Of a stretch of DNA of 64,000 nt, positions 30,225-46,513 are shown piece after piece. The notes below the pieces were generated by a model. The model made no database searches. It saw only the letters and a list, made by a program, of their open reading frames with translations, and was not told the origin of the DNA. The position numbers and the translations under genes are program-made. The number at the start of each line of letters is the position of its first letter. Within the stretch, counting starts at the first letter, position 1. Origin of the DNA: Tetraselmis striata (taxonomy: Eukaryota > Chlorophyta > Chlorodendrophyceae > Chlorodendrales > Chlorodendraceae); assembly GCA_006384855.1 (NCBI GenBank), contig VCJN01000374.1:82965-146964 (forward strand), written 5' to 3'.

Positions 30225-31385
30225 ATGGCTACACCAGGAGAGACGCCACCTGAGGACAGCGGAAGCTTTCCGGTAGCGGCCACTACCGGCGAAGCACAGC
30301 CGATTCCGCTCGAAGGAGGTCAAGAGGGCACGCAACCGACCCTCGTAACTATGATGAGCATGCTTCAACGACTAGCCGACCGAGTCGAGACTATGTCGAC
30401 GGAGCAAGCGAAGATGCAAGATGTAGCGCAAGCTACAACGGCGGCAACGGCGGAGATTCGCCGCTTGGACGAGTACGTGCGACAAGGCTTCAGTCATTTC
30501 GACGACCGAGTGAACCGGAGCCGAGTTGTAGAGCAGCAGATGCGAGACCAGCTTCGTTCTGCCCGGACCAGCGACATGCCTGGGCTCATGCCGAGCGATG
30601 TGAAACCAGCGAAGATCGAGAAGCTATCGACTACGAATATCGACGAGCTACGGAACTGGTTTCGTCATGCACGGGGTTACCTGAAATATCACAATGTAAA
30701 CCCGGAGGAACCTCGTAGCGTGTACTGGGCATCTGGCTATTTTCACGGACCCGTATCCAAGTGGTGGTACGCGCAAGTGGCGAGTACGCACGACGAAATT
30801 GGCGGCGGTTTTACCGGTATTACGCACATGGAGGCGGCACTAATCACCGAATTCTGTGGACGTACACCGGCGAAGCAAGCTCGTATCAATCTGGATCGCG
30901 CGACACAGCGGACTACAGTACAGAAGTACGCGAATTATTTCCGCGAGCAACTACTGGAGTTACCACATCGCCACGAGGAAGATAATGTACATGACTTCCA
31001 GCGCGGACTGAAACCCCATATTCGAAAGGAGGTTGCCCTGAAAAACCCTAAGACCCTGGCAGAAGCTGTACAGGCAGCTCTGGCTGTTGAAGCTGCGGAG
31101 CGGGAGACAGATGTGCACCGCGAGATCCGTCGCGAGCGCCTAAACATCATGGACGACGATGGCGACGACGACGAGCAGTACTACAGCAGTGCTGAGGGTG
31201 AGGCTACAGAACAAGAAGACGACCTGTTGATGGCGCGGCGATTGACCGAGGAGGAGTTTGAGAGATTTAAGAAGGAAGGTCGCTGCTTTATCTGCAGGGC
31301 GAAAGGTCATGTTGCGTCCGCGTGCCCGAGCAAGAAGAAGAAGATTTCTGAATATCGACCCAGAAAGACCCGGCCGGGAAACTAA
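30225..31385 (+). CDS. Gag polyprotein (gypsy)
   Basis: 386 residues from the ATG at 30225. It forms the nucleocapsid/virus-like particle that packages the element RNA in the cytoplasm. Visible parts are an N-terminal region with a likely coiled coil (MLQRLADRVETMSTEQAKMQ) and a central retrotransposon-Gag domain (roughly residues 140-270, with W-rich YFHGPVSKWWYAQV and later FQRGLKPHIRKEVA). An acidic stretch (DDDGDDDE) and a CCHC zinc knuckle, CFICRAKGHVASAC at about residue 353, follow, then a lysine-rich tail. It ends at TAA 31383-31385 immediately after a slippery heptamer. The frame is intact throughout. Confidence 0.95.
   Translation: MATPGETPPEDSGSFPVAATTGEAQPIPLEGGQEGTQPTLVTMMSMLQRLADRVETMSTEQAKMQDVAQATTAATAEIRRLDEYVRQGFSHFDDRVNRSRVVEQQMRDQLRSARTSDMPGLMPSDVKPAKIEKLSTTNIDELRNWFRHARGYLKYHNVNPEEPRSVYWASGYFHGPVSKWWYAQVASTHDEIGGGFTGITHMEAALITEFCGRTPAKQARINLDRATQRTTVQKYANYFREQLLELPHRHEEDNVHDFQRGLKPHIRKEVALKNPKTLAEAVQAALAVEAAERETDVHREIRRERLNIMDDDGDDDEQYYSSAEGEATEQEDDLLMARRLTEEEFERFKKEGRCFICRAKGHVASACPSKKKKISEYRPRKTRPGN
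31376..31382 (+). promoter_or_regulatory. -1 ribosomal frameshift site GGGAAAC
   Basis: Read in the Gag frame as G GGA AAC, a canonical X XXY YYZ heptamer, directly followed by the Gag stop TAA. A -1 slip here enters exactly the Pol frame, which is open from 31352 onward (its preceding stop is TGA at 31349-31351) and continues without a stop to 34732. A GC-rich potential stem (31399-31404 with 31408-31413) lies downstream. Its spacing is longer than usual, so a longer or alternative fold may be the real stimulator. Confidence 0.75.
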
Positions 31386-34300
31386 GACGTGAGTCGGCCG
31401 CGCGCGGCGCGCGACAGGGTGAAGGACTGTCCCCTAAAACGGCTCGCGAGACTACAGAAGTACAGCCCTCGTATCCTCGAACGACACTGAGGCCTGATTT
31501 CCTCCATAAGGATTTCAGCGACTGGATGGTACATCGCGAATTATTTCACGAGTACACGAAGAAATACGGACCCTGCGACCTGGACGGAGCTTGCGATAAT
31601 GACGGCCTGAATTCTCAAGTTTCTGGTAGTTTTTGCTGTCCGACGCGCCCATTTCAGGAACAGGATCTCGGAGAATATCGGCGTATTTGGCTAAATGCCC
31701 CGTATGACCGAATTGAAGAATTTTTGGGCCACTACCTTCGACAGAAGTTATTGCATCCGCATCTACGAGCAATTATTGTGGTCCCAAAATGGTCGCGTAA
31801 GCCGTGGTTTCGACTACTTAGAAATTTTCGTCTGGTGGATGAGTTGCCAGCGGAGACTTCTGTGTTTACGTGCCCAACGAACGATGGCATAGAAGGTGCG
31901 AGACAAGATGTTGGCCCCACTCGATGGGCGACACAGATCTACGCTGACGATGGCGCCGGCGTACGGTTTCTACCGCAGCACCTGAGAACCCCACCGAAGC
32001 CTGAGTGGACGCACTCGAAGGTTCTAGTAACCGATGGAAGACGAGTGCTTCTGACTGTAGAAGACAGCGGACTGATTTGGTTTCCAGAAGGCAAGCGCGG
32101 CGACACGGACGCGACGCCGGAGACAACAGCAGTACGACGATTACTCGAGCAAACTGGGTACCGGGTACAGGAGAGCAATCTACGGTACCTCGGCACTCAG
32201 CGGGCGGGAGACAACCGGTGTCCTGTATACCTGTATCGCGCTCGTCGTAATACTGTACCTACGAAGCCCCCTTTGAACCGTGCACTATGGACAACCTGGA
32301 AGAAATTATTGGAGGCACGAAGTACGGGTTATCTGGAGACGGAGACAGTACGCTACCCACTACGGTACGAAAGCTTCGGCGAACAAATTGATGAATATGT
32401 CAACCGTAACGTCCGACTACCTGGCGAAGACTCCACATCGCGTTTGTGCAACGTATCTTCACCGAGTGGTACCCGACTGCTGACTATTACTGGCGAATTG
32501 CGAGGACGACACTGTAAAATACTGGTGGACTCTGGTGCAACCGAAAATTTTGCGAGTACCGAATGGGTGCAATTGCATCAGTGCCCTACAGTATCCGGAG
32601 GAAAACACCGTATAAAACTGGCGAACGGCAGTATGAGTACCAGTACCAAACGGCTGAGGAGCGAAGTACTTACCGTAGGAGCTTTCGACTATAAATTGGA
32701 CGCTATAGTTACAGACCTGGAGAAATTCGACATTATTCTCGGACAACCTTGGCTGGAAACAGTTAATCCTGACATCGACTGGACTGCTAAAATTATTAAA
32801 CACCGGAAGACTGGACAACACATTGCTACAGCGGAACAGTATACAGTACCTACGACGGTTTACCACCTGGACGCGGCTAAGATGGCGAAGGAACTGAGGA
32901 AGAGTCGCGGCGAGGAACTGTTTGCTGTTGCGGTACGCGAGGTGTTCGATGCGGTAGCTGAGCTGCGCACGGACCAGTCGACCGAGTGGACCGAGGAGCT
33001 CAAGGAGTCCCTTATGGAGTTTGCAGACATCATCGCGGAGCCTACTGACCTGCCACCGGAGCGCGAGTTCGACTTTGAGATCAACCTGGAGAGTGATGAA
33101 CCCCCCAAAGAACGAACGTACCGTATGTCACCAGCGGAGTTGCAAGAGGTACGGTCACAACTGGAGGAATTGTTGGCAAAAGGGTGGATTCGTCCGTCCA
33201 AGTCAAACTACGGCGCCCCGATTTTATTTGTACGTAAGAAAGACGGCACTCTGCGTATGTGTGTGGACTACCGTAAATTGAATGACCTTACGAAGAAAGA
33301 CCGGACCCCGCTTCCTCGTATCGACGAATTATTGGACTCATTGCATGGTGCGACTATTTTCAGTACTCTGGACCTGTACAAAGGCTACCATCAAGTACGA
33401 ATTAAACCGGAAGACATCCACAAAACAGCGTTCCGGACACACTATGGACTCTACGAGTACTGTGTGTTACCTTTCGGCTTGACAAACGCCCCAGCTGGAT
33501 TCCAGACTATGATGAACCGTGTTTTGAGCCCATATCTCGGCAAATTCTGCGTGGTATACCTGGACGACGTGCTGATCTACAGCAAGACAGCTAAAGAGCA
33601 TCTCGAGCACATCAGATTGGTGCTACGGGAGTTGCAACGACATCACTTGCATATCAAGCTGTCGAAGTGTTCGTTCGGCGGTACTAGCGTGGAGTTTTTG
33701 GGCCATATCGTCGAAGCAGGACAGATCAAGATGGACCCCCGGAAGGTGGAAGCAGTTCAACAGTGGCCCGTGCCGAAGACAGTAAAGGACGTACGAGGTT
33801 TTCTCGGCCTTGCTGGCTATTACCGCAAGTTCATCCATAACTTCGCGGCTATTGCGGCGCCACTACATGACCTGACGAAGAATCAACCGGAGTTTGTGTG
33901 GACGCCTCGTGCTGATGCGGCGTTTCGTGCATTAAAGGACGCAATGGTACGAGCACCTGTACTGAGTATACCGGACACATCTGCGGACGCCCGTTACACA
34001 TTGTATACAGATGCTTCTGGATTTGCAGTGGGAGCTGTGCTGCTGCAAGATCAAGGCTCAGGACTTCGACCTGTCGCGTACCATGCACGCAAGATGAACA
34101 AACACGAAGTTCACTACCCGGTACATGAGCAAGAGTTGTTAGCGGTTCGTGATGCACTCATCAAGTTCCGATGCTACCTTGATGGAGCGGCGGGCTTTAC
34201 GGTCATCACCGACCATGACACACTACGGCACTTCTTTCGCCAACGCGATTTGTCGACGCGGCAAGTACGATGGCTGCAAGTGTTTGCGCCTTACCAACGA

Positions 34301-34732
34301 CATATGGACATCGTCTACAAGCGAGGAGCTGCCAATCATGCGGACGCCCTCTCTCGGCGACCCGACTTGAAGGATGCGCTACAGAAGCTAGATCTGCTGA
34401 ACAACTGGTCAGAAGACGAGGCTGACTGCGAAATAAATTCAGTTTTATTTGCTATGGAGTCGCGACTACAGGCGGACAACAAGTTTAATGACGAAATCAA
34501 GACCGCATATGACTCCGACGAGTACCTGAAATCGCGGAAGGCTTTACCATCCTGGCTAGTACGTCACAGTAATGGTCTACTGTACGCCTACGGCTCACGA
34601 CTTTACGTACCAAATGTGGCGGACCTGCGACAACGAGCACTGTACGAACTACATGACGCGCCTACTGCTGGACACCCAGGAGGACGACGACTACTGGCGC
34701 GTACTGTGGAACTGTACTGTAGCCCCGTATGA
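31382..34732 (+). CDS. Pol, N-terminal part: Dam-like, Nudix-like, PR, RT, RNase H
   Basis: Entered by -1 frameshift; the first ATG is at 31526, and residue numbers here count from it (1068 residues). Residues ~1-115 resemble phage-type Dam N6-adenine methylases: DLDGACDNDGLN, WLNAPY at 55-60 in place of (D/N)PPY, then IIVVPKWSRKPWF. Residues ~160-245 resemble a Nudix fold: VLVTDGRRVLLTVEDSGL, then a degenerate Nudix box ending RRLLEQTGY. The aspartic protease follows (LVDSGATE at 333-340, FDIILGQPW near 402). RT has DYRKLND, DLYKGYHQ, LPFGLTNAP and YLDD at 678-681. RNase H has YTDASGFAVG, with D829. The frame ends by a stop inside the integrase zinc-finger region, so Pol is split in this copy. 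The two N-terminal modules look catalytically degenerate. Confidence 0.93.
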   Translation, partial: LRRESAARGARQGEGLSPKTARETTEVQPSYPRTTLRPDFLHKDFSDWMVHRELFHEYTKKYGPCDLDGACDNDGLNSQVSGSFCCPTRPFQEQDLGEYRRIWLNAPYDRIEEFLGHYLRQKLLHPHLRAIIVVPKWSRKPWFRLLRNFRLVDELPAETSVFTCPTNDGIEGARQDVGPTRWATQIYADDGAGVRFLPQHLRTPPKPEWTHSKVLVTDGRRVLLTVEDSGLIWFPEGKRGDTDATPETTAVRRLLEQTGYRVQESNLRYLGTQRAGDNRCPVYLYRARRNTVPTKPPLNRALWTTWKKLLEARSTGYLETETVRYPLRYESFGEQIDEYVNRNVRLPGEDSTSRLCNVSSPSGTRLLTITGELRGRHCKILVDSGATENFASTEWVQLHQCPTVSGGKHRIKLANGSMSTSTKRLRSEVLTVGAFDYKLDAIVTDLEKFDIILGQPWLETVNPDIDWTAKIIKHRKTGQHIATAEQYTVPTTVYHLDAAKMAKELRKSRGEELFAVAVREVFDAVAELRTDQSTEWTEELKESLMEFADIIAEPTDLPPEREFDFEINLESDEPPKERTYRMSPAELQEVRSQLEELLAKGWIRPSKSNYGAPILFVRKKDGTLRMCVDYRKLNDLTKKDRTPLPRIDELLDSLHGATIFSTLDLYKGYHQVRIKPEDIHKTAFRTHYGLYEYCVLPFGLTNAPAGFQTMMNRVLSPYLGKFCVVYLDDVLIYSKTAKEHLEHIRLVLRELQRHHLHIKLSKCSFGGTSVEFLGHIVEAGQIKMDPRKVEAVQQWPVPKTVKDVRGFLGLAGYYRKFIHNFAAIAAPLHDLTKNQPEFVWTPRADAAFRALKDAMVRAPVLSIPDTSADARYTLYTDASGFAVGAVLLQDQGSGLRPVAYHARKMNKHEVHYPVHEQELLAVRDALIKFRCYLDGAAGFTVITDHDTLRHFFRQRDLSTRQVRWLQVFAPYQRHMDIVYKRGAANHADALSRRPDLKDALQKLDLLNNWSEDEADCEINSVLFAMESRLQADNKFNDEIKTAYDSDEYLKSRKALPSWLVRHSNGLLYAYGSRLYVPNVADLRQRALYELHDAPTAGHPGGRRLLARTVELYCSPV

Positions 34733-35970
34733 AACAGACTGTCACTAACTACGTGCGACGCTGCCCTACCTGTCAACGTACTAAGGCGGCCCGGCATAAG
34801 CCATACGGCTTACTTCAGCCCCATGACGTACCGTCACGACCATTTGAGGTAATATCCCTGGATTTAATCACAGATCTTCCGGAGTGCCAGGGGTATGACT
34901 CAGTAGTGATTTTCGTATGTCTACTGTCAAAGCGAGTAATTGTTGAGCCAACTACGAAGACAGTTACTGCTGAAGGCCTGGCGGAGATTATGCATCGCTC
35001 AGTTTTTCGTCATTTCGGCCTACCGGCTAAACTCATCTCTGACCGAGACCCCAGATTTATGTCGGAATTCTGGCAAAATATGTTCAAGACCATGGGTACT
35101 AAGCTGAACATCTCTACAGCTTTTCATCCAGCAACCGATGGCCAGACGGAACGCACTAACCAAACTTGGGAGCAAGTGCTACGCTGCTACGTGCACCCCC
35201 TGCACGATGATTGGGTCAACCACCTCACCAACGTGGAGTTTGCGATCAACGCTGCTCAGTCGACTTCGACTACTATGTCCCCTTTCAAGGCGACTTTGGG
35301 ATTCGAGCCGACTACACCTGCTACTACTCAACTCGCAACCGAGCCGACTCGAGCTCTTCCGGAACACGTCAAGTATGTACAGGAGCTTCATCGCTTCGCG
35401 CATGATTGCGTACTGGAGGCTCAAACTCGTATGCAGACTGCAGCTAATCGTAAACGACTACCCGTACCATTCAAGACCGGCGACAGAGTTAAGCTGAAAG
35501 CGTCTCATCTGAAGTTTATTCAGCAACCCTGTGCTAAGCTACGCGATCGCTACGTGGGCCCCTTCGTCATTACAGAGCAGATCTCACCAGTTGCTTTCCG
35601 ATTGCAACTACCTGCGGGCGTACGAGTCCACGACGTGGTGCACGCGAGTATGCTGGAAAAGTGGTATGACGACCCTGACCAACCGGCGAAGTCTGAACGA
35701 GTACCGATTGTCCACGACGCAAACCGATTCCATGTTCAGGACATACTCGATGTTGCCTTCAACAACAATGGCACTGGACTACTGTTTCGAGTACGATGGG
35801 CGTTCCCGTACAACGTACCAAGCGAAGACACCTGGGAGCCCCTACGCGGAGTCAAGCACCTGGACATTTTCCGGTCGTTCTTACTGTCTAAACCATACCG
35901 ACAGTTTACTGAGAGCCCAGACTTCATTCGGTTCCGGAATCGTTACCCAAGCCGAGTACCTTCCGCCTGA
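34729..35970 (+). CDS. Pol, C-terminal part: integrase and chromodomain
   Basis: 413 codons in the +1-shifted frame, overlapping the upstream stop by four bases. It begins with the second half of the HHCC zinc finger (RRCPTCQRTK); the two histidines (LHDAPTAGHPG) are at the end of the upstream frame. This makes a single-base indel the simplest explanation of the split. The catalytic DDE core is complete: SLDLITDLPE, LISDRDPRFMSEFW and ATDGQTERTNQTWEQ. A chromodomain follows at about residues 334-387 (FHVQDILDVAF, LLFRVRW, EDTWEPL), which in chromoviruses directs integration to modified chromatin. A ribosome could reach this frame only by another shift; a mutation or a sequencing error is likelier. 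Confidence 0.93.
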   Translation: MKQTVTNYVRRCPTCQRTKAARHKPYGLLQPHDVPSRPFEVISLDLITDLPECQGYDSVVIFVCLLSKRVIVEPTTKTVTAEGLAEIMHRSVFRHFGLPAKLISDRDPRFMSEFWQNMFKTMGTKLNISTAFHPATDGQTERTNQTWEQVLRCYVHPLHDDWVNHLTNVEFAINAAQSTSTTMSPFKATLGFEPTTPATTQLATEPTRALPEHVKYVQELHRFAHDCVLEAQTRMQTAANRKRLPVPFKTGDRVKLKASHLKFIQQPCAKLRDRYVGPFVITEQISPVAFRLQLPAGVRVHDVVHASMLEKWYDDPDQPAKSERVPIVHDANRFHVQDILDVAFNNNGTGLLFRVRWAFPYNVPSEDTWEPLRGVKHLDIFRSFLLSKPYRQFTESPDFIRFRNRYPSRVPSA

Positions 35971-38409: not shown

Positions 38410-38790
38410 CTATGGCTCAGGTCCTAGGATCTCTACCCAGACTTCCCTGTCCTCCCTCTCTTCGGAACCGGGAGGGGTGTTGGGACAGTACCTCGTACAG
38501 TCATGTGGAGTACCGCGGACGCAGGACTGATGGCGGCAGAGGCGCAACGCAAGGCTCCCGGATGACCCCATCAGGAAAGCGCGGAAATGAAGAAAGGTAG
38601 TCAGCGACAGCGCTTTAGCGAAGAAGTCGGCCAGGTGGGCCGGGGTAGGCGTGTAGTGCATGTTGATGATGCCGTCTTGGTAGAGTTGGACCGCATACTG
38701 AAACTGGAGGTCAATGTGGCGTTCCGCGCATGTAATTATACCATGTTGCACCTGAACCATGCATGCGCGGTTGTCCCCGCATACTTGCAC
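38410..38790 (-). pseudogene. Copia RNase H C-terminus remnant
   Basis: The frame contains CGDNRACMVQ, then ERHIDLQFQYAVQLYQDG and PTPAHLADFFAKALS. This is the well-known end of copia RNase H (cDN..., KHIDi.yhf.Re, t..q.ADi.TKal). It is in a different frame from the RT at 38736-39617, so the gene is broken between them. Confidence 0.8.
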
Positions 38791-39617
38791 CGGGGCAGCA
38801 GTGGGGTGGCTGAGCTTGGCGCAGAAGAACGTGAATAACCGCCAGACATGTGCAGACCCCGCAGAGCGCCACGACGAACTCCGCTGCGGCAGTAAACATG
38901 GCCACGCTGCCTCCGAACGTGCGCACGGTAGGTGATTGGAGTGTTATGAAAGTTGGTATTCAGCGTACAGGGCAGGCGGCGAGGCTTTCTCTCCGTCATG
39001 TGAAAGGTAGTCAGAATGTCAATGATGCAGGTTTCCCGATGAAGATGGATCACGCCGTCCGGTGCGGAGCCGATGAAGTCGAAGTCACGTAGAAAGGAAG
39101 AAAAGCACAGAAACCATGCCTTGGGTGCCTGCGGCAGATCGTAGAGTGCCTCAACGGGGTTCCAAGCCCGGTCCTTATGGCGACAGCCGGGGGAGAGGTA
39201 GTCATAGGTATCTGCATTTCGGTCGGCGTTGAGGAAAACACATCGGACGTCGAACTGGTAGAGCTCCGAGGTGAGTTGAACCGTGATAGCAACGGTGGTG
39301 CGCAAGGCGACGAAGTGAACGACTGGGGCATAGGTCTTGGCGTCATTATAGGTCTCGCCGGTGGTGAGTATATTGCCGCGGACGATCACGCCGGCCTCGC
39401 GCCTGATGGTGTTGCCATCTTTGTGCTGCGCCGTGAAGGCCCACGCCATCTGTTGGATGACCGCGGACTCGTTGTTGCGTCGAAACTCAGGGACGTTGAC
39501 CCAGACGAAAAGTGCCATCGTGGTGATAGAGTTGATCTCATGGTTCATGGACGTCTTCCAATCATCCGGGCGAGTGTTGCAGATGTCCTCCTGATAGCTG
39601 CGCGGCGCCGTGGACAC
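38736..39617 (-). pseudogene. Copia reverse transcriptase, degenerate
   Basis: Recognisable Ty1/copia RT order: DDWKTSMNHEINSI, WAFTAQHKDGNTIRREAGVI, TYAPVVHFVALRTTVAI, YQFDVRCVFLNAD and EALYDLPQAPKAW. The catalytic YVDD box is represented by CIIDIL, so the first aspartate is lost. The frame then departs from copia sequence. Reverse transcription from this copy is not possible. It lies about 300 bp downstream of the methyltransferase-like region, which leaves no room for an integrase. Confidence 0.85.
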
Positions 39618-39931
39618 GCGGACAGTGGGTGCCGGTTAGGCGAGGGCTGTCAGCCGCGCTGAGTGGGGGCGCACAACCGCCGCGATCGCGGATGCCACCA
39701 GTGTTGGGTGGAAGTCGCTGAGGTCGACATAATGGGAAGGTAGTTGCGCATGTTTGCTGGTGTGAGGAGCCGACAGTGCCGTGGCGTCCCCCTCCTGATG
39801 GCGCGGAGGGTGCTGCTTGTTGTGATGTGGAGGTGGGGGGCCCTCCTGCGCCGAAGCAAGCGCCGCCGATGGCAGCATGGGTGGCGGTGCGTGGGGCCCG
39901 TCCTGCTGGCCCGAGGGTTGAAATTCGTCCA

Positions 39932-40954
39932 TCATGTAGTCAGCGTTGGAGAACTGAAAGGCATAGGGAGAGGCGAGGTCGTGCACCCGGCAACCGGGTT
40001 GTAGATGTTGTAGCCACTGAAGGGGCCGGGGTCGGCGAGCTTGATGGCGGCGACGTTGTTGACGCAGTTCCGGTTGTCCTGCGGTTGAGTGATAATGGTC
40101 CACAGAAGGGTGTTGCGGTGAGTCGCCGAGTCGCAGGACGCCGCGCGCACGATGTTGCATGCGCCAAGTGAGGAGAGTACTTCATGTAAGGCCAGCGCGT
40201 CTGGGAAAGTCTGCACAATATAGCGCACTGGTGTGGGCTGAGAAGACAGGTAGAAGCGGATGAAGTTGATGTTGGAGGAGAAGGCACGAGAGCGATGGTC
40301 CTGCCAGTCAAGGCGTGAGCCCGTGCGTGACCATGGTTGACACTGTGTGCTTGACATGACGAGGGTGAACGGGCGCAGCCGCTCCAGCTCCGTGATGGTG
40401 ATGTCGTTGATGTTCATGGGGGTCCCGTCATGACAGTCCTGAAATGCTGATGGAGGCAGGCGGCCCGGGTATTCGCTGTTGATGACATGTACGTGATGTG
40501 GCCACATAGTGCGAGCCCCCGTTGATGGGTCGGCGCCGATGAACGCGTGGATGGAGAAGCCGTATTCCACCACAGTCTCCACCTCAAATGCCGGTGGGCC
40601 ATGGCAGGGCGAGAAGAGATGCTCGATTACCAAAGAAGAGCTTGGCATATGGAGGAGTGGGGCAGCGGTGAGTATCGGGAGCGGCGGTGGCAGGTCTCCA
40701 CGTAGGGCGCCCTGCCCCGTATGAACATCGTGGGCCGCCAGTGCCGCTGAGGTTGGGAATGCGGGTGAAGCGAGGCAGAGAGGTTGAATTGGGGTGGGAA
40801 TGGGTTGAGAGCGGAAGTGGCGGGCACGCGATGGGTGTGAGAACGGGAACTGGAAGTTGTCGTCAGAGTTGGAGTAGGGGACGTGCCAGGATTCATGTAA
40901 TTCATCGTCTTCGTCGTCCTCGCTCTCCCCCTCCTGCGCTCCGGTGGCTGCCCC
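39932..40954 (-). CDS. C5-cytosine-methyltransferase-like domain in copia element
   Basis: The frame is the same as Gag and is open from the codon after the Gag stop. The domain starts at the first in-frame ATG (40648; 238 residues), preceded by an acidic linker (GESEDDEDDE) and a proline-rich stretch. Residues 5-50 give SLVIEHLFSPCHGPPAFEVE and VVEYGFSIHAFIGADPS, matching the motif I-III layout (LFsGiGG...GF.v....d). Residues 80-120 give NINDITITELERL and then TQCQPWSRTG, the motif IV 'PCQ' region with the catalytic cysteine kept (Cys103, codon 40340-40342). VRYIVQTFPD (141-150) stands for the ENV motif. THRNTLLWT (176-184) resembles motif VIII. The glutamate of ENV is replaced by Gln and the motif-I glycines are poor, so activity is doubtful. 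The target-recognition domain and motifs IX-X are not recognised. The role in the element is unknown. Confidence 0.72.
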   Translation of the reverse strand, partial: GAATGAQEGESEDDEDDELHESWHVPYSNSDDNFQFPFSHPSRARHFRSQPIPTPIQPLCLASPAFPTSAALAAHDVHTGQGALRGDLPPPLPILTAAPLLHMPSSSLVIEHLFSPCHGPPAFEVETVVEYGFSIHAFIGADPSTGARTMWPHHVHVINSEYPGRLPPSAFQDCHDGTPMNINDITITELERLRPFTLVMSSTQCQPWSRTGSRLDWQDHRSRAFSSNINFIRFYLSSQPTPVRYIVQTFPDALALHEVLSSLGACNIVRAASCDSATHRNTLLWTIITQPQDNRNCVNNVAAIKLADPGPFSGYNIYNPVAGCTTSPLPMPFSSPTLTT

Positions 40955-42256
40955 TCATGGGCCGGTGGTGGTGCAGGTGAGCATGACGGGCAGGCCGCTG
41001 TGGTGTGGTGCCAACGAGGACACACTCATTACCGGGTAGGCCTCCTGGCCTCCTGTCGGCTGCTGGTCGGAGTCGTTGTTGGCCGGGTGATGTCCGTGGT
41101 GGTGATGTCCGGCCGGGGAGACGAAGCCGAATGGCTGGTGATGGCGCTGCATGTCGTCGTTGTCGCTCTGGGTGGACCAATATTGCAGCCGCTGGGGCCT
41201 GTTTGGATGGTTGTAGTCGTTGCGCAGGTTGTGGGTGTAGTTGTTGTTGACGTGACGCTCCGCAGGCGCGCGCTTACAGTTACCATAGATAGGGTTGTTC
41301 ATGGTGCTGGGTGGGGCGGTGTCACCCAGGAGACGCAGGCCGTTGGCATGGCGCCTGGCCAAACACTGCTGCTGAGCATGGCATGGACGGTCACACCTGA
41401 TGCAGACGATGTTGGGCCTGGTGGCATATAGTTGGTCCATGGGGTCACAGGAATTGAGGGTTGGCGTGCGGGAACGGGCGCGCTGCTGACGCTGACGCGT
41501 GCGCGCCTCTATGTTCTGTCCGGCACTTATGATGGTTGCCAGCCTTTTGTTGACATTGGTTGCCGAGATGGTGGCGTCGACAATGTGATCGTATGTTGGG
41601 TGAAGTCCTGGGATGAGGTAGTTGATGGCCACGTACTCGAATGTCCACTGACCATGTGCCTTGCGCAACAAATGCCAGAGGTTCCGGCAGCGGCGAACGT
41701 ACACCTGGACCGGCTCATTCGGGAGCTGGCCTGCTGTGATTTCTTCCTCCAAGCGCTTGCGCTCCTCTATGGCAGACCCCTGGAGTTCAATAAATAGGGC
41801 CGTCCAGGCCGCATATACACACTTCCTGGAGTCCATGTTGATGCTGTCGACGATGGCCAGTGCCATGGGATAATTCGCTGTCGCGTGGCGCAGGGCTGCC
41901 AGAAGAGTGAGCTGCTCCTGGTGGGTGCTTTTGCCCTTGGTGGTGTCCAGGTAGCCGGCGCTGCCGAGGGAGATCTTGATGGCCTGAGCATTATCACGCG
42001 TAGAGATGTTCCGGTCCCTCACGGGGACCGTCGCGAGGTCGAGTGTCGGCTTCACTGCAGACGGCTTGATCCATTGGATGTCACTGGAGTCACTGTCTGA
42101 CGCACCGTGTGGGCTGAAAGCGCCTTCAGAACTGGTATCACTGTCACTAAAGTCAGGCGGCGGTGGGTCGCTACCAGGGTCCTTCTTGACCGCACTCCTC
42201 CCAGCTAGATTAGGCAGAGGGGTGCTCATCATGCCGGTGGTGATGATGGTAGACAT
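40955..42256 (-). CDS. Gag (copia-like)
   Basis: 433 residues from the ATG at 42256 (MSTIITTGMMST). A serine/aspartate-rich N-terminus is followed by a copia-type Gag domain: GYLDTTKGKSTHQEQL, WTALFIELQGSAIEERKRL, VQVYVRRCRNLWHLL and LIPGLHPTYDHI. A CCHC zinc knuckle, CIRCDRPCHAQQQC, follows at about residue 290. Gag coats the element RNA in virus-like particles. The frame is intact, and its TGA stop (40955-40957) separates it from the methyltransferase-like frame, which continues in the same phase. A fused protein would need stop-codon readthrough, or the TGA may be a mutation. Confidence 0.85.
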   Translation of the reverse strand: MSTIITTGMMSTPLPNLAGRSAVKKDPGSDPPPPDFSDSDTSSEGAFSPHGASDSDSSDIQWIKPSAVKPTLDLATVPVRDRNISTRDNAQAIKISLGSAGYLDTTKGKSTHQEQLTLLAALRHATANYPMALAIVDSINMDSRKCVYAAWTALFIELQGSAIEERKRLEEEITAGQLPNEPVQVYVRRCRNLWHLLRKAHGQWTFEYVAINYLIPGLHPTYDHIVDATISATNVNKRLATIISAGQNIEARTRQRQQRARSRTPTLNSCDPMDQLYATRPNIVCIRCDRPCHAQQQCLARRHANGLRLLGDTAPPSTMNNPIYGNCKRAPAERHVNNNYTHNLRNDYNHPNRPQRLQYWSTQSDNDDMQRHHQPFGFVSPAGHHHHGHHPANNDSDQQPTGGQEAYPVMSVSSLAPHHSGLPVMLTCTTTGP

Positions 42257-42884
42257 GGTGGAAGGATGGCGCACTTATCCTGGAAGATGTATATAATTGT
42301 AGGGGTGGGCGGGTGGGAAGAAAAGTCTCGTCGCACGTCGCCGTCGATCGTCGAAAGCTGTAGAGGGTCGAGATACACGCAGGTTGAAGCCTCTGGCAGG
42401 CGTCGAGCACGGGGCAAGACGTCGAACCAAAGGAGAGGGCCCAAAAACCTGTCGGAGGGAGATTGTCGAAGTGATGGCTGAGTGGCACTGTCACTGATGG
42501 AAAGAGAGTCGGCGTGTAAGCGTCGAATCACGTCGAGTGCCAGCAAGCGAGATGCAAACTGGGAAGGCAAAGGGCTGCTATGATGAGCCGTGGGCGATGG
42601 ACGAAAAGTAGTCGCTGTCGCCGTGGTGATGGTTGAGTGGCACTGTCACGAGAGAGAAAGGGTGAGTCGGAATATTTCTGGAAAAGCAGTTGACTGAATT
42701 ACAAGGAGCCAAGGCTGACAATATATACCAGCCGGCTAGGTGTCAATTAGGACGGACACCTCTCCGTCTAAGAAGGCCAATTGCAAAGACGCCTAGGTGT
42801 CACGCTTTGGTAACAACTGGGTGCCGTACTTCTGCCATACGGTCTAAATTAGGCACATGTACGGCAGCCAGCTGTTCACTGGAA
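42257..42884 (-). promoter_or_regulatory. Copia leader with TATA-like box
   Basis: Non-coding leader upstream of Gag. TATATAT at about 42720-42727 on the minus strand could be the element's core promoter. No LTR partner was found at the other end of the element, so LTR limits cannot be given. Confidence 0.4.
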
Positions 42885-42910
42885 TTTCAAAGTTGAGTCT
42901 GGTTTTGCCA
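42885..42910 (-). repeat. Split repeat B2
   Basis: 26 bp, tttcaaagttgagtctggtt plus ttgcca on the plus strand; same as B1 at 43190-43215. Confidence 0.85.
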
Positions 42911-43003
42911 AAAAGGTCGCGCAGGCTGTTTTACACGGTCAAGAGCCGAAATTGGCAGGAAGGTTTAGCGAAAAGCGTGGAGGGAAAACGGAGTCAGGGG
43001 GGG

Positions 43004-43189
43004 CGCTGCGTGGAACGCAGCGAAAACTGGAAGATGGCAGGCTCAGCTGTTCTGGCTGCTTTCATGTCTACTCGTGCTGCACCCAACAAGGGCGCAACAA
43101 CAGTTACTAGTTCCCGTACCACTGCGCAGCACTTGTAGCTGAAAAGCGGTTAGGTCAAGGATGGAAACCCCATAAACTAGTTTAGATCA
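43004..43189 (-). repeat. Split repeat A2 (186 bp)
   Basis: Nearly identical to A1 at 45899-46084 (one difference noticed, tttcatg versus ttttatg). Confidence 0.92.
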
Positions 43190-43215
43190 TTTCAAAGTTG
43201 AGTCTGGTTTTGCCA
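43190..43215 (-). repeat. Split repeat B1
   Basis: 26 bp directly joined to A2; same as B2. Confidence 0.85.
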
Positions 43216-43268
43216 GTCTTGAGCGAACGTAGAGAGCGGTGGATTGACGGAGAAGGGGTAGCGCCAAG

Positions 43269-44930
43269 TCATGAAGGAGGCACTGGGAAGGCCACCGCTG
43301 CGGAGTCCTGTTGGACTTGGAAGTGGCGGAGGGGGGCGATGTGTCCAAAGAAGAACCACGCGCCAGGAGAAGGAAGAACGTTGGGGTCGATGTAGTCCAG
43401 AACGACATCGGAGTTAGTGGCCCAACCGCCCTGGTAGCGGATGTGGGACAGTGGCGCTCCGATGGCGTTTGCAGCAGAGGCTGCGCCCTTGCGTAGACTG
43501 TGTGAAGTCCAGGAAGTGCCAGCAGGAGGGGCTGCGTTGACTAGGTTGACCGCTGTAGACAACCAGTCTGACATCGTAGCCGCAGTCCAAGGTTTTGACT
43601 GCTCAGCCACATTTACAGCCCAGAAGTTGGAGGCAGCCAAGCCAACAGTAACCAGGGGGACAGACTGGACGTTGTCGATGAAGTAGCGTAAGAGTCGTGC
43701 CACTCGAGGGTGCTCGGACACCGGAAGGAGCAGTACGCGCAGGTCGTCGGGTCCCCGACGGCCAGCGCGACCCTTCTCGCGGTAGACCTGCAAGGTGATG
43801 TTGTAGGTGTCGACATGCACATCTTGCGCTCGACAGGAGACGCCAGTAAGGCCCCTGGCAAAGAACAGGAAGTTGACAACCGAAGCCAAGAGGGCTCGGT
43901 AGTCGAGGTGGGACTCTGGATAAGGAGCAGACACAATTAGCTCGGCCTTTGAGACGAAGCGGTAAGCTACATCCGCAGGCAGAGGGACACGCAAAGGGGC
44001 AGCGTCCAGCCGGCGCTGCCGCAACATTAACCCACGCCTTGCCGAAGTGAGGTGTAGGCTGTCCTTGGCGATCGGGACGAGGTTGTGCAGCTCGAAGAAG
44101 GTGTTGATGGCAGACAGGTAGGGCTGCAGCGACTTAGCTGCGATGTGACCTCGCTCCCCGATCCAGGCAACGTACCGAACAACAGTAGCAGTAGTCGCCT
44201 CCAGCGGGCTGATGTTCTCGGAGTCGTGGCAGAACTCAGCGAACTGAGACAGTCTGCCGGCGTAGCTCTTGAGGGTCTGCGCGCTGAGGGAGCTGGAGAG
44301 CAGGTCCAGCGTCCGCTGGCCTAGCTCGTCTGAGCCGAACGCGTCCTGCAGCCGAGATCGCAGTGACGCAGCCCATGGAGCGATAGCTGCGGGCTCGTCG
44401 ATTACGTAAGTGCGTCGTTTTACTGACAGAGTTCCACTGGCACGGCTACTGTTCGCAAAGTACTCGGCAGCAGCGGTTAGGTTCCCGGCGGTTGGCCGGT
44501 AGTTGCTGGACGGGTTTGCAGTAGCTTCAGTACGGGTTTGCGGGGCTAGGTTCAGGTAAGAGGGCCGCCCCGCGCGCCCGTCGCGCTCGTAGCGCCTGTC
44601 CCGTGCGTAACGTACACGCGCGAAACTTGGTCGTTGCGAACCGGTTGTAACACGTAGTGTAACAACCGACGAACGCAGAGATGGGGTTGTAAGAAAGGCG
44701 GATGGTTGAGCCGCCATGTGCAGGTGTACGGATGGTTGAGCCGCACTCGGTTGTAGCTGTAAGAAGCGCCGCACCGAGGAAGGTCTAAATAAAGTCTGTA
44801 AGGTGGGGGGGTCAGGTCCTGACACAGGGCGCTCATCCCGCCGTTGAGCTGCAAGGGTGCGTTTTGCGGCGGTCACCGAAAGGTGGCCTCGCAAGGCTCC
44901 TGCAGCTCCGACGAGCGGCGCCCCACGCCA
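43269..44930 (-). CDS. Tyrosine recombinase (DIRS/Crypton type)
   Basis: The frame is open from just after the Gag TGA; the first in-frame ATG at 44717 would give about 482 residues. The N-terminal third is basic and low in complexity. The SAM-like core-binding domain (SLSAQTLKSYAGRLSQFAEF, TVVRYVAWIGERG, LQPYLSAINTFFELH) and then the catalytic domain follow. The catalytic arginine is in FARGLTGVSCRAQDV, a lysine in YREKGRAGRRG, HxxR in SHSLRKGAASAAN, tryptophan in GGWATNSDVV and the tyrosine nucleophile in LDYIDPNVL. It would cut and rejoin circular or linear element DNA at the target through a 3'-phosphotyrosine. All catalytic residues are present and the frame is intact, so this copy may be active. 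No RT or RNase H accompanies it. Confidence 0.9.
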   Translation of the reverse strand, partial: WRGAPLVGAAGALRGHLSVTAAKRTLAAQRRDERPVSGPDPPTLQTLFRPSSVRRFLQLQPSAAQPSVHLHMAAQPSAFLTTPSLRSSVVTLRVTTGSQRPSFARVRYARDRRYERDGRAGRPSYLNLAPQTRTEATANPSSNYRPTAGNLTAAAEYFANSSRASGTLSVKRRTYVIDEPAAIAPWAASLRSRLQDAFGSDELGQRTLDLLSSSLSAQTLKSYAGRLSQFAEFCHDSENISPLEATTATVVRYVAWIGERGHIAAKSLQPYLSAINTFFELHNLVPIAKDSLHLTSARRGLMLRQRRLDAAPLRVPLPADVAYRFVSKAELIVSAPYPESHLDYRALLASVVNFLFFARGLTGVSCRAQDVHVDTYNITLQVYREKGRAGRRGPDDLRVLLLPVSEHPRVARLLRYFIDNVQSVPLVTVGLAASNFWAVNVAEQSKPWTAATMSDWLSTAVNLVNAAPPAGTSWTSHSLRKGAASAANAIGAPLSHIRYQGGWATNSDVVLDYIDPNVLPSPGAWFFFGHIAPLRHFQVQQDSAAVAFPVPPS

Positions 44931-45785
44931 TCATTCGTGCTCACCTTCGCGGCCGCGTCCACGTCCGCCACCACGTCCTCGCCCCCGCCCGCGACCTGCA
45001 GCTGCAGCCGCTACTCGAGAAGTAGCGGTCGCCTTGGCGCTGCTGGCAACGGTCGCCTCGAAGACACGACGCTCGTAGTCTCTCATCAGGTCCCCAAAAA
45101 TCGCAGAACCCAGATGCTCCGCAGCAGGCTGAAAATGCTGAGCTCGCAGCACATCCAGAACGCCTTGGTCACCGTGCACACGCTTGATCTCATTCAGCCT
45201 CCGCAGGAAGGCTAGACGAAAACGAAACGCCTTGTCGATGGCCTCGGCGTGATTCCGAGCTCTCGCGAGGTAGGGGGTGAAGTCCTGGTTAGTGGTGGGG
45301 ACGTAAGGTAGCAGCTCGTCGAGCGCCACGAAAAGGGCGGCCATGTGAGCCCCGAAACACGACATCCACAAGTACTCCTCCTGGGCCGGCAGACGCCGGT
45401 CATCCTGCTTGAGGTACTCGTTCGTTAGGTCGGTGCTCAACGGGAAAAGTCCAGGCACTCGGCTGACCGGTCGAACGGCCTCGTAACCAGACTCTGCTCT
45501 CTGCAGTAGCTCTGGCACCGCGAGGTAATCATCCTCGGCACTCACGGATTTTGCTCCGACACGGCCGCTCTGGGCTAGCTCTAGCAAGTCGGGGCGCTCT
45601 GCGGCTCCCCCGCTGCCTGTCGGCTGTCCCGCGAAGCGCTGCCCGGAGCCGGAGCCATGTGCACCTTCTCCATCAACAGCGCGATCACGAGCCGTCAATT
45701 GTGCTACAGCTGTAGCCAATGCACGCACATCTGCTTGCAACGACGTGAGCGTCGGCTCAACGACGGGTTCTTCTCCATCTGACAT
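44931..45785 (-). CDS. Gag-like protein of recombinase element
   Basis: 284 residues from the ATG at 45785 (MSDGEEPVVEP). An acidic N-terminus with a short coiled-coil-like helix (LTSLQADVRALATAVAQL) and a Gly/Ser linker come first. A helical core follows (DDYLAVPELLQRAESGYEAV, LTNEYLKQDDRRLPAQEEYL, DFTPYLARARNHAEAIDKAF, LDVLRAQHFQPAAEHLGSAI), then an RG-rich tail (GRGRGRGRGGGRGRGRE) suited to RNA binding. There is no zinc knuckle. The position before the recombinase matches DIRS-type Gag, so the call rests on context and composition. It ends in TGA, followed in the same frame by the recombinase; copy 2 has the same TGA-TGG junction. Confidence 0.75.
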   Translation of the reverse strand: MSDGEEPVVEPTLTSLQADVRALATAVAQLTARDRAVDGEGAHGSGSGQRFAGQPTGSGGAAERPDLLELAQSGRVGAKSVSAEDDYLAVPELLQRAESGYEAVRPVSRVPGLFPLSTDLTNEYLKQDDRRLPAQEEYLWMSCFGAHMAALFVALDELLPYVPTTNQDFTPYLARARNHAEAIDKAFRFRLAFLRRLNEIKRVHGDQGVLDVLRAQHFQPAAEHLGSAIFGDLMRDYERRVFEATVASSAKATATSRVAAAAAGRGRGRGRGGGRGRGREGEHE

Positions 45786-45898
45786 AGTAACGCACGGACG
45801 TACGGACGAGAATATCACACTCGGATGGCGAGCCGGGTGTGGTCTTGAACAACCTGGGGTGACCTTGCTCGCAACGGGTTACGAGACAGTTTTTACAT

Positions 45899-46084
45899 CG
45901 CTGCGTGGAACGCAGCGAAAACTGGAAGATGGCAGGCTCAGCTGTTCTGGCTGCTTTTATGTCTACTCGTGCTGCACCCAACAAGGGCGCAACAACAGTT
46001 ACTAGTTCCCGTACCACTGCGCAGCACTTGTAGCTGAAAAGCGGTTAGGTCAAGGATGGAAACCCCATAAACTAGTTTAGATCA
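45899..46084 (-). repeat. Split repeat A1 (186 bp), element 5' end
   Basis: Nearly identical to A2 at 43004-43189; begins (minus strand) tgatctaaactagtttatgg. Confidence 0.92.
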
Positions 46085-46513
46085 AAATGCGGATTTCACA
46101 GAGAGAAAAAGCGGATTCAGGGTACCAGGGTACCCTGGGTCCAACACATGTCATTGCGGCGCGCGCGCGGGGACTCGCGAGACCCCCGGCGGCGCGCGCT
46201 GCTGCTGCGCGTGCCTCCATCGGCGGCTGCCGCCGACAAATTCGCGACGTTGCCCACCAGGACATGCTGTCGCGCTGCGCCGCGCACCTCCACGGCACTA
46301 CCCGCAAGCTACGAGTGCGAGAACACCAAACGACCGCGCGTCTGAGTAGGTAGATACAAGTAGCATCTGGCCTACTCATCTTCCCCGTCAGCGCCGTCAC
46401 CCTATCGTGAGCAGCCCCGGGAGTTACCTTGGCCCGACAAACCCGCGTCAGCGCCCAGCTCCCCCAGCATCTGTTGGGCAGGCGAAGCACCCTTGTACTC
46501 CAGCTGCAACAAG
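46085..46513 (+). other. Upstream region of host gene
   Basis: 430 bp between the mobile element and the first recognised exon; presumably contains the promoter and 5' UTR or an upstream exon. No TATA box was recognised. The plus-strand ORF at 46087 has no recognisable domain. Confidence 0.4.

Follow-up and report, generated by a model that had tools for sequence, protein, structure and literature searches.

A 64,000-nucleotide stretch of the Tetraselmis striata genome (contig VCJN01000374.1, positions 82,965 to 146,964; hereafter the window) raises the question of whether a Copia long terminal repeat (LTR) retrotransposon can have exchanged its protease and integrase for a C5-cytosine methyltransferase. 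An earlier note had proposed this for a 340-residue minus-strand frame at 39932-40954. The frame is present: it lies directly after Gag, with which it is in phase beyond one TGA, and a Copia reverse transcriptase (RVT_2, E=1.6e-15) follows ~300 bp downstream. Intact relatives of the element, by contrast, carry the methyltransferase together with an ordinary protease and integrase, and a stretch is missing from the window copy. No exchange of parts has taken place: what lies at the locus is the dead remains of a derivative that arose by deletion. We consider it highly probable (about 0.85) that the copy, now decayed, belongs to a subfamily (A) with internal deletions within a Ty1/Copia family (F1), and that the full-coding sister subfamily (B) encodes Gag, DNA methyltransferase (DNMT), protease, integrase, reverse transcriptase and RNase H in that order, with a complete DNMT3-like methyltransferase.

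The window frame was compared with a profile of eight retroelement methyltransferase domains, drawn from other families only and including no member of the window element's own. Residues 112-294 matched at 114.9 bits, against a best score of 4.2 in 1000 shuffles, and the likeness is therefore homology. The Pfam DNA_methylase profile (PF00145) matched the translation at E=0.0057 and 16.6 bits, under its cut-off of 22; among single PDB chains the top two were unrelated LRR-extensin chains (E 0.01-0.02), with tRNA C5-methyltransferases next (E 0.02-0.03). The remnant runs from motif I to motif VIII at about 40016-40636 (-), this and the following minus-strand positions being computed from residue numbers. 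The motif IV cysteine is retained in CQPWS (about 40340-40342), motif VI reads QTF and not ENV (about 40205-40213), and the junction of a deletion shared with related copies (LADPGP/FSG.NIYNP) falls at 40013-40018. Of the domain, the frame keeps no more than the N-terminal two thirds; the target-recognition part and motifs IX-X are gone. The recognition of a C5-methyltransferase in this frame was thus sound as to descent and catalytic cysteine; with ENV replaced and the C-terminal half deleted, it does not extend to a complete enzyme.

The genome from which the window comes (224 Mb, 2903 contigs) was searched with the 340-residue frame; the best 119 of 467 candidates were scored, and at least 150 matches were obtained, all counts being lower bounds. 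Subfamily A, including the window copy, occupies at least 36 places, taking matches with an identity of at least 75% that cover 80% or more of the query; 24 of these 36 places are stop-free. Matches of the B type, also at least 36, show 53-67% identity over at least 264 residues and end near residue 313; the remaining matches listed are shorter pieces or mixed.

Subfamily B elements have a single open reading frame (ORF) of up to 2162 residues, encoding one polyprotein. In two of them (L009 and L011) Pfam recognized, in order, a weak CCHC-type match, DNA_methylase (E = 3.9e-9 and 3.8e-9, respectively), GAG-pre-integrase, an integrase core just under its cut-off, SH3_retrovirus and RVT_2. The protease, recognized by DSGASSH, follows immediately after the methyltransferase, which therefore stands between Gag and protease. 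Eight B copies were read. Two of them, L009 and L010, have an uninterrupted frame that takes in everything from Gag to RNase H and, although at different loci, are 99.96% identical over 6997 bp. In L012 and L013 the frame likewise stays open to its end, but 327 bp of RNase H are missing. The methyltransferase domain of the full-coding relatives has the C5-methyltransferase core motifs in order, and its predicted fold is that of DNMT3, to which it is closer than to other C5-methyltransferases among the structure families compared; DNA-bound structures rank top. The catalytic cysteine and EN(V) are conserved in all 12 B reads. The nearest proteins elsewhere are T. striata gene models (27 of 27 matches in one search, the best at 92%, and 8 of 13 in a second, the best at 99%), and the claim of a chlorophyte Copia element with a C5-cytosine methyltransferase domain is upheld. 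With A and B pooled, matched LTR pairs measure 451-509 bp and are 98-100% identical, LTR ends are TG..CA, and 9 of 11 relatives have identical 5-bp target-site duplications (the end of L015 is irregular and L011 is cut by the end of its locus). Because of these LTR identities, ends and duplications, we conclude that A and B elements are recently active Copia elements.

The relation of A to B is apparent at the junction LADPGP/FSG..IYNP, which is common to the window copy and all nine aligned A copies, and which the query matches of L038, L039 and L041 span. Where A has this junction, B carries the C-terminal half of the methyltransferase, the protease and the integrase; the loss in A amounts to ~1.65 kb in the alignment. 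The A copies compared have additional internal deletions in reverse transcriptase and RNase H relative to full-coding copies. The ENV glutamate is lost in all 13 distinct A reads (the window copy and 12 others), and the catalytic cysteine is Leu in nine of them and has been lost in a different way in L039; the window copy, L038 and L041 still have it. As the glutamate is gone throughout and the cysteine persists in three reads, the ENV motif probably decayed first. The suggestion that the window element could modify its own DNA finds no support in a domain with this glutamate lost and its C-terminal half deleted.

Six A elements have LTR pairs 98.0-99.8% identical and so moved recently. This mobility, together with the many copies of A, most of them stop-free, is what might be expected of a Copia element in which the methyltransferase truly replaced protease and integrase and which works as it is. 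That explanation is nevertheless very improbable, given that copies of the same family have protease and integrase downstream of the methyltransferase, that the loss in A can be aligned, and that the remnant has lost catalytic residues and evolves close to neutrality (see below). As an ancestral architecture, the exchange is refuted by the intact relatives. Internally deleted LTR derivatives reliant on a full-coding partner are a familiar class; subfamily A resembles them in having kept LTRs and target-site duplications and lost protease and integrase, and differs in still having a long open frame, which includes Gag and a dead piece of methyltransferase.

Splicing was considered as the origin of the A deletions and rejected, since, of the deletions inspected, none but that in RNase H is bordered by intron-like sequence (CAG^GC..CAG^TC). 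From their sequence, the borders of the RNase H deletion may equally be GC-AG intron-like or CAG microhomology. The same precise ~327-bp loss, with these borders, occurs in B copies L012, L013 and L020, whose LTRs are 99.6-100% identical, and its junction is also found in A copies L014, L017 and L018.

Two further Copia families, represented by L036 (F2, a 2299-residue ORF) and L044 (F3, 2144 residues), carry a methyltransferase directly before the protease. The Ty1/Copia order of protease, integrase, reverse transcriptase and RNase H, with an RVT_2-type reverse transcriptase, was found in L009, L011, L036 and L044, RNase H being identified by motif in L009 and L010. The reverse transcriptase is RVT_2 (Copia) in all three methyltransferase families, and the combination of a Gypsy-type reverse transcriptase and integrase was not found in them. 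All three F2 copies conserve the catalytic cysteine and EN(V), as does the single F3 copy that was read. The F3 methyltransferase scores 18 bits, below the Pfam cut-off, so DNMT counts based on Pfam would miss this family. In a fourth family (L045, a 1561-residue ORF), protease follows Gag and there is no methyltransferase match. Among the best 150 of 897 candidates scored, at least eight have ORFs of 2144-2147 residues and are presumably F3 (one read), and the 1561-residue length recurs in many (one read). The F2 reverse transcriptase is 47% identical to that of the DNMT-less L045, versus 35% to that of F1; one gain of the DNMT followed by loss, two gains, or exchange between elements therefore all remain as accounts of these sequences.

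Pairwise dN/dS was computed with a Nei-Gojobori script for eight B and 10 A copies. In B it was 0.14 and 0.20 for the two parts of the methyltransferase and 0.15 for protease-integrase, whereas the A remnant gave 0.81; the B reverse transcriptase value (0.63) was not used, as frames break in several copies. Substitutions were also counted per site, each variable site once and with identical sequences dropped (for the methyltransferase, 7 distinct of 9 B reads and 10 distinct A sequences). Replacement:silent counts in B were 13:15 (p 0.0011) and 12:12 (p 0.0056) for the two methyltransferase parts and 13:19 (p 2.7e-5) for protease-integrase; in the A remnant they were 59:26 (p 0.13). The three F2 copies gave 27:40 for the methyltransferase (p 2.5e-9), 30:29 for protease-integrase (p 2.7e-5), 50:26 for the spacer (p 0.05) and 4:4 for Gag (p 0.10). 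We conclude that both halves of the B methyltransferase are kept by purifying selection and that the A remnant is near neutral. Gag complicates a simple story, being loosely constrained in both subfamilies (pairwise 0.56 in A and 0.72 in B; per-site p 0.009 and 0.0004, respectively).

How might such an enzyme serve the element? Made as part of the Gag-Pol polyprotein, the DNMT would be carried into the virus-like particle, where it could methylate CpGs of the newly made complementary DNA (cDNA) or, alternatively, CpGs at the site of integration; each insertion would then be marked on arrival. We put this role at slightly less than even odds. Subfamily A would depend on B proteins for movement in trans, and the methyltransferase remnant of A, freed of selection, would have died. 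Experimental support comes closest in the SymbioDIRS DNMTs, which methylate CpG in yeast (PMC5890265).

Several observations weigh against this account. Of the eight B copies read, six have a defect in reverse transcriptase or RNase H (four break, two are without the 327 bp), and motif I of the window element's family is divergent (FSPCHGPS). The selection counts are small and come from related copies that are not independent, and the difference between A and B reaches only p 0.04. The domains of KnitGypsy-Dnmt3 and SymbioLINE gave no methylation in yeast, a result described by its authors as inconclusive (PMC5890265). The mutational record gives no support either. CpG-to-TpG/CpA changes are enriched 2.3-fold in F1-B, 2.2-fold in F2 and 1.5-fold in A (2.2-fold in F1-B and F2 and 1.3-fold in A in an initial count), and 1.2-fold across 11 LTR pairs, as against 3.4-fold in the DNMT-less Copia family (15 of 956 CpG versus 13 of 2786 other C/G sites). 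F1-B and F2 do not differ significantly from that family (p 0.43 and 0.31), and A is lower (p 0.04). CpG decay was accordingly discarded as a sign of self-methylation, there being no excess over the DNMT-less family. The excess in that family (L045, L120, L121 and L032-L034) hints that transposon CpG methylation may be general in this genome.

The same divergent motif I, unremarkable CpG signature and inactivity in yeast of two published retroelement DNMT classes (PMC5890265) would suit a full-coding DNMT that works without methylating DNA, either as a nucleic-acid-binding or assembly part or as an RNA or tRNA methylase whose target is the genome or the tRNA primer. We regard this as unlikely, in view of the cysteine and EN(V) conserved in every B, F2 and F3 sequence read, the predicted DNMT3 fold with DNA-bound structures ranking top, and the purifying selection on both methyltransferase halves. 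Somewhat less likely again is that the DNMT targets host chromatin, silencing neighbours or its own insertions and so limiting damage and making host and element compatible. DNMT3 proteins are de novo methylases, in keeping with this role. Slowed transposition to the benefit of the host has been proposed for known elements (PMC5890265); in T. striata, however, a DNMT-less Copia family (L045) thrives in the same genome.

The origin of the domain was approached through its relatives in other elements. Homologous methyltransferase domains occur, among polyproteins from public sequence collections, in Gypsy polyproteins with a PHD finger (P0037 and P0038), in further Gypsy polyproteins (P0040 and P0041) and in a polyprotein of the long interspersed nuclear element (LINE) type (P0039, with methyltransferase, PHD, RNase H and a PCIF1-like domain), and in a LINE-like element of T. 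striata itself (L037, G000:C2687). P0037, P0038 and P0039 have the nearest non-Copia DNMT domains in the trees (33-37% identity to L009) and differ from the Copia group in their retroelement class and PHD fingers. L037 and P0039 are alike in joining DNMT, RNase H and a PCIF1_WW-like domain in one LINE-like polyprotein, and the N-terminus of P0039 looks protease-like by eye.

Trees were built from 23 mostly near-complete retroelement domains out of at least 106 matches, the rest being fragments or near copies; five bacterial-type sequences and the window remnant were the only additions, made in the first tree. Sixteen sequences labelled as Gypsy or unknown comprise four Gypsy polyproteins, two fragments with Gypsy domains and 10 of unknown element type. 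The Copia DNMTs form one clade (94/88 in the first tree, 95/91 in the second), joined by the Gypsy-PHD domains (92/94; 97/95) and next by the LINE DNMTs (99/97; 100/100). The sister group is made up of the remaining Gypsy and unknown sequences, and Gypsy DNMTs are thus split between two parts of the tree. Grouping all T. striata retroelement DNMTs in one clade was rejected (p-AU 0.005), and two other alternatives had p 0.069 (not rejected) and p 0.046; the groups for these tests were named after the first tree had been seen. On these alignments, Copia and LINE DNMTs each appear to sort by element class and not by host. The reverse transcriptases do not follow this pattern, that of F2 being nearer to L045 than to F1.

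The earlier note had envisaged a separate capture of the methyltransferase. A single capture from T. striata, independent of the Gypsy and LINE cases, would fit the unity of the Copia clade. It is doubtful all the same, for the Copia clade has Gypsy-PHD and LINE DNMTs from other sources as its neighbours, the clade of all T. striata retroelement DNMTs was rejected, albeit for a group named after the first tree, and a multi-exon host DNMT (L048, one read) scores only 47 bits with the retroelement profile. Passage between elements fits the shared clade at least as well as separate capture. A tentative picture, to which we give less weight than to the particle role by itself, is that a DNMT3-like lineage resides mainly in retrotransposons and passes among algal elements of the Copia, Gypsy and LINE classes. 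Its Copia members, in three or more families, would have a fixed place between Gag and protease and would act in the particle so that copies arrive CpG-marked, and the deleted subfamily would live off the machinery.

A viral source was also considered and set aside: a scan of IMG/VR confirmed at least 71 loci, and the best among the matches listed was 37% over 96 residues. Separately, the T. striata genome contains six intronless 325-residue frames of bacterial-type C5-methyltransferases (L024-L029), 98.5-99.1% identical to that of L024, which match PF00145 over the whole domain (up to 3.1e-42) and have other long frames beside them; they possibly belong to an endogenous DNA virus or large transposon.

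The remaining parts of the window copy all lie on the minus strand. Gag is a 439-residue frame at 40955-42274, with a weak CCHC-type match (E=0.019, under the cut-off), whose terminal TGA is in phase with the methyltransferase frame. The reverse transcriptase remnant (RVT_2; Pfam, open frames) spans 38736-39635. A C-terminal remnant of RNase H, likened by eye to L009, spans 38491-38943 as far as the last base matching related elements, within an open frame at 38410-38943. BLAST comparison with relatives placed the inner part of the 5' LTR at 42450-42884 and its outer ~63 bp at 46084-46147, severed by an inserted element; no 3' LTR was detectable by BLAST at the other end. The insertion at 42885-46083 (-) is a tyrosine-recombinase element foreign to the Copia element. 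It has a 553-residue recombinase-like ORF, a 315-residue ORF without a Pfam match, and 186-bp direct repeats 99.5% identical; a similar recombinase ORF lies at L021 8036-9694. Elsewhere in the window, a Gypsy pol at 31352-35970 (+) has, upstream of its protease, a NUDIX domain over the cut-off and a Dam-like N6-adenine methyltransferase match of 24.1 bits (cut-off 28.1). It is a second retroelement in the window with a possible DNA-modifying accessory domain.

Retroelements reported to carry DNMTs comprise LINE, DIRS and Gypsy types, and Copia elements of Symbiodinium are stated to lack any DNMT (PMC5890265). KnitGypsy-Dnmt3 of Klebsormidium nitens resembles the present elements in having a DNMT3-like domain under purifying selection in an LTR polyprotein of a green-lineage alga; as described, it is set apart by being a Gypsy element of a charophyte with the domain in Pol (PMC5890265). 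SymbioDIRS-Dnmt3 and SymbioLINE-Dnmt of Symbiodinium are likewise retroelement-borne and reach hundreds of copies, but are tyrosine-recombinase and LINE elements (PMC5890265). One sentence of a 2025 article (PMC12344493) names 'LTR Copia and DIRS' as DNMT3 carriers, citing de Mendoza et al. 2018. It agrees with our findings in naming Copia as a carrier, whereas section 5 of that article describes neither an element of this kind nor its domain order, nor any example from a chlorophyte. The article says LTR Copia where the cited paper (PMC5890265) reports LTR Gypsy for the streptophyte element. No Copia element with the Gag-DNMT-protease order, and none in Tetraselmis, was found among the titles and abstracts listed in searches of open-licence papers. 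Within these sources, Copia with this order, in a chlorophyte, is a third LTR context for a DNMT; earlier cases come from dinoflagellates and a charophyte and belong to the LINE, DIRS and Gypsy types.

Hosts usually fight transposons with cytosine methylation, and elements with a de novo methylase of their own invert this picture, raising the question of why a parasite encodes the mark that hosts use for silencing. With young, multi-copy DNMT-bearing Copia elements in three families, a DNMT-less Copia family and DNMT-dead derivatives in one genome, T. striata offers a built-in comparison for the role of the enzyme.
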